Source: Gammaproteobacteria bacterium
GTDB lineage: Bacteria; Pseudomonadota; Gammaproteobacteria; Ga0077536
Assembly: GCA_016874535.1 (NCBI GenBank)
Contig: VGUA01000013.1
Span: 1 to 51,025 of the forward strand
DNA: 51,025 nucleotides
Direction: 5' to 3'
In this document: piece after piece, positions 36,805 through 38,642 of the stretch
How the letters are laid out: each line of letters opens with the position of its first letter
Position numbering within the stretch: position 1 is the first letter of the stretch
Notes under the pieces: model-generated
Databases searched by the model: none
Told to the model about the DNA's origin: nothing
What the model saw: the letters and a program-made list of their open reading frames with translations, nothing else
Translations under genes and position numbers: made by a program

Positions 36805-36856
36805 GATGGTGCCGACGCGCGGAATCGAACCGCGGACCTACTGATTACGAATCAGT
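36805..36856. repeat. Partial tRNA-Thr copy (att-like direct repeat)
   Basis: 52 bases identical to 38565-38616: the encoded CCA, T-arm, variable loop and anticodon stem-loop of tRNA-Thr. At the other side the D-arm and 5' acceptor strand are missing and are replaced by AT-rich sequence, so this copy cannot make a tRNA. Confidence 0.92.
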
Positions 36857-37052
36857 AATTGCACCTTATTTTACAAATAGTTACCGGAATAACCCCTGGG
36901 AAAAGCTACTCGAAGGGATACTTCTGCAGAAAGCGTTCCTAAGGCTGACACCATAGCGCATTTCCGCAACTGCCCGGGCGAGCCGGCGGCGGCAAATTGC
37001 GCTTCATCGGCGCTCCAGACCCTGTGCCCGTACCGGGCGCGTCGGCACGCGG

Positions 37053-37439
37053 TCAGGGCTTTTGCTTGCGCATCGAGTTCTTGATCGCGATCTTGCCGTT
37101 ACGAAACGTGTAGACGTCGCAGCCGCGCGCCTCGACCTTCGCGCCGTCGCTCTGGCGCGTGCCGGTGAAAATCCATTCACAGCAGCCGCGGTTGCCGGTG
37201 ATGAAGTCCTCGCCGACCGGCGTGAAATGCGCGTCCGGGTAATTGTCCCAGAGACTCGCGAAGCCTTTGCGCACCTCCTCGCTGCCGACCCAGTGCGCGC
37301 CGTTGACACCTGCGCCCACGGAGGCCATGAACTCGCAGTCCTCATCCATATGCGCCATCAGGGTGTCGATGTCGTGGTCGTTCCAGGCCTGGGTGAAGCG
37401 CGCCAGAAATTCGGGGGTGACTTCGTGCTTGTTGGTCAT
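37053..37439 (-). CDS. SnoaL/NTF2-like small protein
   Basis: 128 residues from ATG 37439. NTF2-like fold signs: FLARFTQAWNDHDIDTLMAH, DEDCEFMAS, GSEEVRKGFASLWDNYPD and the last strands VEARGCDVYTFRNGKI. Relatives include polyketide cyclases, dehydratases and unassigned SnoaL-like proteins. It lies in the tRNA-Thr segment and is divergent from the hydrolase with 98 bases between starts, so they may share a control region. Confidence 0.82.
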   Translation of the reverse strand: MTNKHEVTPEFLARFTQAWNDHDIDTLMAHMDEDCEFMASVGAGVNGAHWVGSEEVRKGFASLWDNYPDAHFTPVGEDFITGNRGCCEWIFTGTRQSDGAKVEARGCDVYTFRNGKIAIKNSMRKQKP

Positions 37440-37537
37440 GTCGATTGATCCTTTCGCTTGGTATTCGATGCCGGTTAAATTCTCAGGTGCAGCAATCCGC
37501 CTGCGTCGTTTCGAGAAGTTTACTGGAGAGTTGCGCG

Positions 37538-38305
37538 ATGATCCTCGGTCATGAACTCTACGGTCGCGGCGCCGATGGCGTGATCGTCATGCACGATTTC
37601 TACGGCTGCCGCGATACCTGGGCCTTCGCGCGCCAGTTTTTCGATGTTGATCGCTACACCTATGCCTTCGTGGAAATCCGCGGCTACGGCGAATCGAAGA
37701 ACATGCCCGGTGAGTACACCCCCCGCGAGGCGGCGGCGGATATTCTCCATCTGGCGGATAATCTCGGCTGGCAGCGTTTTCACGTAGTCGGCCACTCGCT
37801 GAGCGGCATGCTTGCACAGCGAGTCGTGCTAGACGGCGGTGCACGCGTCAAGTCAGCCGTGCTAACCACCCCGGTCGCGGCGTCCGGATTGAGCTTCTCG
37901 CCGGAAGGTTTCAAGCTGATTGAAGGCTCGATCGACAGCGATGAGCTGTTAGGCCAAGCATTTGCTGCACTGACCGGCAATCGGCTCGGGCCCGAGTGGG
38001 AGCGCTTCAAGATTCGGCAGCAGCGCGCCTCGCGCAACCGCCTCGCGAATCACGCGTATCTGAAGAGTGCCGTCGAGCAGGGCTTCCTCGACGATATGCG
38101 CGGCAACCGCACGCCGATGCTCGTCGTCGTTGGCGAGTTCGATATGGAGCCGTTCACCGAGGCCACCGCGCGCGACACCTTCCTGCAGTGGTATCCGCAC
38201 GCCGAACTCGCGGTGTGCCGCAATGCCGGGCACTACCCGCAGCAGGAAGCACCCGTCTACGTGGCCGCGGTGATCAACGAGTTCCTCAGGCGCCAGTGTC
38301 TCTAG
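37538..38305 (+). CDS. Alpha/beta-fold hydrolase
   Basis: 255 residues from ATG 37538, GGAG nine bases upstream (the long N-terminal extension to 37445 is not supported). The nucleophile elbow is GHSLSG (FHVVGHSLSGMLAQRVV), with VVVGEFDMEPF (Asp region) and RNAGHYPQQEAP (catalytic His). The usual oxyanion loop HGF is replaced by MHDFYGCRD. The substrate is unknown. It ends with TAG, the only clearly intact gene in this window to do so, which hints at a different origin from its neighbours. Confidence 0.85.
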   Translation: MILGHELYGRGADGVIVMHDFYGCRDTWAFARQFFDVDRYTYAFVEIRGYGESKNMPGEYTPREAAADILHLADNLGWQRFHVVGHSLSGMLAQRVVLDGGARVKSAVLTTPVAASGLSFSPEGFKLIEGSIDSDELLGQAFAALTGNRLGPEWERFKIRQQRASRNRLANHAYLKSAVEQGFLDDMRGNRTPMLVVVGEFDMEPFTEATARDTFLQWYPHAELAVCRNAGHYPQQEAPVYVAAVINEFLRRQCL

Positions 38306-38564
38306 CCGAGAGGCGACAGACCTGCCGCCATCTCGTTTGGTCTGTGCGAATCGACCAAGGCATCCAGGAAAACCCTTTATTGGCTCAGGCCGCCATGACC
38401 CACCTCGGCTTGTTCTAGCGGATGGTGGACAGTCCATTAGCAGCCCAATTCTTTGTGGCAAGGCCATTCGTCGCAAAATACCTTTCGCACAGAGCGAACC
38501 GCGAGGGTAATGCTTTTTGATTGAAGGGGTTACACCGCTTGGGGCCAGTGAACACAAGGGTTTG

Positions 38565-38616
38565 GATGGTGCCGACGCGCGGAATCGAACCGCGGACCTA
38601 CTGATTACGAATCAGT
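38565..38616. repeat. Direct repeat inside intact tRNA-Thr
   Basis: The right-hand copy of the 52-bp repeat; it covers the 3' 50 bases of tRNA-Thr plus two bases beyond CCA. Confidence 0.92.
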
Positions 38617-38642
38617 TGCTCTACCAGCTGAGCTACGTCGGC
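38567..38642 (-). tRNA. tRNA-Thr (anticodon CGT)
   Basis: 76 bases with encoded CCA. Acceptor GCCGACG pairs with CGTCGGC, D-arm GCTCAGCTGGTAGAGC, T-arm GGTTCGATTCC. The anticodon loop TTCGTAA gives CGT, reading ACG. Its 3' part is duplicated at 36805-36856. Confidence 0.95.

Follow-up and report, generated by a model that had tools for sequence, protein, structure and literature searches.

A 1.76-kb arrangement in the 51-kb stretch of DNA analysed here (51,025 nucleotides, hereafter the window) is probably what is left of an integrative element inserted at the 3' end of a tRNA-Thr(CGT) gene, a remnant resembling a CIME that still carries two cargo genes. Site-specific insertion at this tRNA gene is in itself very likely, because the arrangement matches the Islander signature and viral integrases are found at this tRNA end. 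The observations behind this reading are the geometry of an exact repeat, an empty site in a genome of the same genus (G003), a foreign gene pair under selection, a contig free of integrase genes, and other insertions at the same tRNA. A tyrosine integrase would have been the agent, and we favour loss of its gene over its supply in trans.

Repeat and empty site at tRNA-Thr(CGT)

The features of the region are as follows.
36587..36778, minus strand: gene for a 63-aa Cys-rich protein, left chromosomal flank (89% amino acid identity to G003; present at the empty site)
36805..36856, minus strand: displaced tRNA-Thr 3' fragment, predicted distal attachment core (52-bp exact direct repeat)
36857..38564, no strand: putative inserted segment of 1,708 bp (no counterpart in the 5 other genomes of the genus)
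36989..37041, no strand: short stretch also found beside the gene pair in G030 (85% over 53 bp)
37038..38336, no strand: block common to chromosomes of another genus, g4 (93% DNA identity to G034 and G016, 87% to G030)
37053..37439, minus strand: SnoaL-like (NTF2-fold) protein, 128 aa, intact (PF12680, SnoaL_2, E 7.5e-22)
37538..38305, plus strand: alpha/beta hydrolase, 255 aa, intact, divergent from the SnoaL-like gene (PF12697, E 3.8e-15)
38400..38482, no strand: 83-bp stretch with 89% identity to contig C184 of G034, where it adjoins an IS200/REP-type transposase-like gene
38565..38616, minus strand: predicted tRNA-proximal attachment core, tRNA 3' half plus 2 bp (52-bp exact direct repeat)
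38567..38642, minus strand: intact tRNA-Thr(CGT), the putative target gene (ARAGORN; Rfam RF00005, 74.8 bits)
38653..39081, minus strand: Fur-family regulator, right chromosomal flank (PF01475)

A first-pass annotation had reported 52 identical bases at 36805–36856 and 38565–38616, and a repeat search recovered exactly this direct repeat, identical at 52/52 positions with a spacing of 1760; chance cannot account for an exact match of this length. As that annotation had described, the repeat runs from the anticodon stem to just past CCA, comprising the whole anticodon stem-loop (ACTGATTCGTAATCAGT), the T arm, the acceptor 3' strand, CCA and 2 bp beyond. Its description of an intact tRNA at one end and a partial copy at the other agrees with ARAGORN and Rfam, both of which call a single tRNA-Thr(CGT) at 38567–38642 and none at 36805, and the AT-rich stretch that it had pointed out after the partial copy amounts to 36 nt of about 28% GC, compared with 62.6% for the window. 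In the direction of the tRNA, the intact gene comes first, then 1,708 bp of cargo and then the 3' half again, in direct orientation with the fragment downstream, which is the order that insertion into a tDNA requires. Repeat searches around the other tRNAs of the window revealed no similar 3'-half repeat. Elsewhere in the window, a 41-bp direct repeat of 90% identity (11704–11744 and 12350–12390) has its copies 646 bp apart.

The annotation had read this geometry as attL/attR and had proposed a search of close relatives for an empty site. Both the reading and the prediction were borne out by G003 (locus L032), the closest same-genus genome compared, in which purK, purE, the Cys-rich gene, one uninterrupted tRNA-Thr and fur follow one another with no insert. 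The alignment of the window to G003 covers the left flank up to 36779, resumes at 36798 through the repeat and continues from 38566 rightwards, with 75–79% identity in the long flanks, and 36857–38564 has no counterpart. It is the displaced fragment that aligns to the single copy at the empty site; the 3' half of the intact tRNA would be the one supplied by the element. The gap between the Cys-rich gene and the tRNA in G003 is ~140 bp longer than that between the Cys-rich gene and the displaced fragment in the window, so a small indel appears to accompany the junction. In relatives in which the neighbourhood is assembled, fur adjoins tRNA-Thr.

Traces of further events at this tRNA are found in other genomes of the genus. 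In G004 the same part of tRNA-Thr occurs as a 53-bp exact repeat, with copies 4,968 bp apart, which bounds a 4.97-kb segment (L031:6560-11580, contig C27) with unrelated cargo: a HicB-like DUF1902 protein, a cpYpsA/SLOG protein, an HTH regulator and an IS66 transposase pair. No integrase was found in that segment. In G005 a decayed tRNA 3' fragment (74–78% identity) lies 722 bp from tRNA-Thr, and in G002 a 3' fragment is found on a contig that lacks the tRNA itself. The first-pass annotation had also suggested looking for a longer island with an integrase at this tRNA; that expectation was borne out in part, by the different segment of G004 and the decayed fragment of G005, while no longer integrase-bearing island was found in the order. 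The segment ends in the present genome (G000), G004 and G005 share no more than short words at roughly chance level, which gives no sign of common arm sites. In a class-wide sample of 87 genomes with an exact tRNA core, two cores were found in G004 only (the window was counted once, its second copy differing at the first base of the search pattern), so duplications of this kind are uncommon overall and cluster in this genus.

Origin of the cargo and age of the insertion

The SnoaL-like gene and the hydrolase that the annotation had placed inside the segment are both supported by protein-family matches, and the 5 other genomes of this genus lack the pair, their closest hydrolase matches being remote (E about 1e-11 to 1e-14). 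In genus g4, by contrast with the flanks, conservation is high: the pair block has 93% DNA identity over 1.3 kb to G034 and G016, against 77% to G016 for ispH, the best-conserved flanking gene, and ~80% for the most similar stretch within the genus (in G003). A protein tree places the window copy together with those of G034 and G016 (support 98/93), within a g4 clade supported at 100/100. The identity of the block relative to ispH and this nesting together argue that the pair was acquired by horizontal transfer from g4. In the g4 genomes there is no tRNA in the stretch around the pair; the annotation had held that an insertion would be contradicted by finding both genes and the repeat at a fixed, syntenic place in distant relatives, and no such arrangement was encountered.

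Both genes are intact. The SnoaL-like protein has 95% amino acid identity to G034/G016 (dN 0.020, dS 0.22–0.25) and the hydrolase 97% (dN 0.013–0.015, dS 0.20–0.22), and this excess of dS over dN in intact frames indicates that selection has kept both working. NCBIfam and PDB returned remote matches only, to esterases, enol-lactonases and ketosteroid-isomerase-like proteins. Elsewhere in the order, and also in Binatia, these two genes again lie side by side, at one such locus with a frame between them that is presumably amidase-like, judging from its sequence; these associations suggest that the pair may form a small catabolic unit. Two public MAGs carrying the pair (L100 and L111) are titled Klebsiella pneumoniae; their copies group with those of these uncultured Gammaproteobacteria, and the labels look wrong.

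The captured DNA may extend beyond the genes. The stretch at 36989..37041 is probably a leftward extension of the captured block, and 38400..38482 is probably g4 DNA too, so that 36989–38482 of the 1,708 bp could plausibly all derive from g4, with ~132 and ~82 bp left for the element ends. In G034 (L038:2999-3081) the 83-bp stretch also lies beside GGGTGTCCC-like repeat arrays, and in G016 (L089:10520-11663) a similar array and a transposase start just where the cargo homology stops. Near the distal end of the segment, an intergenic 52-bp stretch (36934-36985) has an 83% match in the same genome, at C64:11954-12005.

If the insertion dated from the split from G034/G016, about 5 changes would be expected in the unconstrained displaced fragment, and 0 are observed. 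This estimate takes dS as about 0.2, or roughly 0.1 per branch, and assumes no gene conversion; under it, the Poisson chance of zero changes would be about 0.5%. The missing changes suggest that the insertion is recent and came from a donor outside the sampled genomes, or else that the element has moved at least twice. The two 3' halves, restored and displaced, are identical to each other and unlike the tRNA-Thr of G016 and G034, which differs from the repeat in the T arm, and thus the last attP seems to have matched a host of this genus, or another host whose tRNA is the same.

Probable loss of the integrase and alternative routes

The annotation had remarked that the segment holds no integrase, and in a whole-genome search for tyrosine recombinases (PF00589) none of the 8 matches fell on this 51-kb contig. 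A tblastn comparison with a set of integrases found no meaningful similarity in the segment, and among 36 genomes of the order (the same 36 that represent the family) there was no integrase-bearing relative at tRNA-Thr(CGT). Viral contigs do carry tyrosine integrases directly at this same tRNA-Thr end, so it is a real target of such enzymes. Several candidate sources were set aside. ORFs scanned beside tRNA-Thr(CGT) in relatives encode a CMAS-type methyltransferase, a luciferase-like monooxygenase, an MMPL transporter and one product without a family; no integrase is among them. In the genome itself, one integrase lies beside tRNA-Thr(TGT) on contig C98 and one near tRNA-Arg(ACG), and neither shares the 52-bp repeat. 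The former (C98:8742-9229), with an Arm-DNA-bind_3 domain, is directly downstream of its tRNA; its catalytic domain is split over two frames (a pseudogene or an assembly error), and the contig end falls inside the putative island. An insertion sequence or transposon was rejected, as none of the enclosed genes encodes a transposase and the boundary repeats are a direct tRNA fragment, not terminal inverted repeats. Plasmid and phage collections yielded no source: the matches listed cover 4–7% of the query and consist of tRNA-Thr sequence only.

According to the explanation that we prefer, a circular element with an attP containing a copy of the tRNA 3' half would have recombined with the chromosomal tRNA at the anticodon-loop subsite. 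One end of the insert would thereby have gained a complete tRNA gene, and the original 3' half would have been displaced to the far end. The SnoaL-like/hydrolase pair would have been picked up by the element from a relative in g4, and the integrase and any transfer genes later deleted, leaving attL, attR, two still-selected genes and ~130 and ~80 bp of unassigned end DNA; the starting point would have been a genomic island or a prophage. Against deletion stands the lack of any detectable integrase remnant in the segment, so that the loss itself is not seen; that no integrase-bearing relative was found at this tRNA in the order, and no sign of common arm sites, also counts against this explanation.

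In the main rival, which we think unlikely, a non-autonomous 1.7-kb circle, consisting of an attachment site and cargo, would have been inserted in trans by an integrase encoded elsewhere. The short ends left once 36989–38482 is attributed to g4, with no integrase remnant in them, are compatible with such a cassette, as are the second integrase-less segment of G004, with nearly the same repeat extent, and the presence of other tyrosine integrases in the genome, one of them beside tRNA-Thr(TGT). However, that integrase appears frame-split and the 3' half of its tRNA differs, no matching tRNA-Thr(CGT) integrase is known in this genome, and no other copy of the cassette occurs in any genome compared. 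A broader form of the idea, to which we give little credence, is a class of very small non-autonomous tDNA cassettes (1–5 kb, no integrase) at tRNA-Thr(CGT) in this order that depend on an integrase in trans. If true, such cassettes, the segments of G000 and G004 among them, would be comparable to MITEs for tRNA-targeting integrases.

It is also conceivable, though improbable, that two events were involved, with an old island leaving the tRNA fragment and the pair entering the gap later by illegitimate or homologous recombination. Islands at this site do decay in the genus, as the fragments in G005 and G002 illustrate, and the cargo has diverged from its g4 counterparts to an extent (dS about 0.2) that suggests a greater age than that of the repeat; yet the unconstrained fragment is still identical at 52/52 positions, which points to a young repeat, the foreign DNA lies exactly inside it, and G003 has no fragment. 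We consider it very improbable that the arrangement is an assembly artefact, in which foreign cargo was joined at a repeat common to two organisms in the metagenome. The genome is in 189 contigs and 52 bp is short enough for small k-mers to collapse, but a mis-join at both ends needs cargo that itself bears the 52-mer, whereas the pair-bearing g4 genomes have no tRNA near the pair and the tRNA-Thr of G016/G034 differs in the T arm. Both flanks, moreover, align to G003.

Comparison with known integrative elements

Salmonella thrW is, we assume, the CGU isoacceptor among the threonine tRNA genes. P22-like prophages integrate at it (PMC2629481), so that a threonine tRNA gene is the target of integrase-bearing phages there as well; these are full prophages, in contrast to the present segment. 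The signature described for tyrosine integrases by Islander is exactly of the kind seen here, and 2,083/3,919 of its mapped islands are anticodon-centred (PMC4383910). With its subsite 'A' islands the segment shares an intact tRNA followed, in the expected order and orientation, by a displaced 3' fragment, with crossover at the anticodon. A flanking tRNA and fragment, an empty site and foreign cargo, as expected of a tDNA island, are present and an integrase inside is absent; lacking that gene and being <2 kb, the segment fails two filters of the database and would be missed.

CIMEs (cis-mobilizable elements) are decayed ICEs or IMEs that keep attL and attR (PMC5704250). The segment is CIME-like in its anatomy and may belong to this class: predicted attL and attR bound it, integration and transfer genes are absent, cargo is kept and one end restores the target gene. 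It differs in being very small (1.76 kb) and in having no known parental ICE/IME or tandem partner. The nearest published parallel is in Dehalococcoides, where 15 ssrA islands keep their repeats without an integration module (PMC3146451). In both cases a repeat of the 3' end of an RNA gene surrounds integrase-less cargo, and several segments share one target in related strains. The Dehalococcoides islands involve a serine recombinase, a 20-bp repeat in tmRNA and integrase-bearing sister islands, whereas here the 52-bp repeat lies in a tRNA and no integrase-bearing sister island was found.

The segment presents, within 1.76 kb, a fully bounded inter-genus gene transfer, with empty site, donor clade, attachment repeats and intact cargo. 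Finders of the Islander type drop candidates that are integrase-less or <2 kb, and such segments go uncounted in gene flow through tRNA genes; that six genomes of the genus yield two segments without an integrase at a single tRNA suggests that a survey would be worthwhile. Set beside the known systems, the segment is a stripped-down genomic island of an ordinary kind, unusual in its small size.
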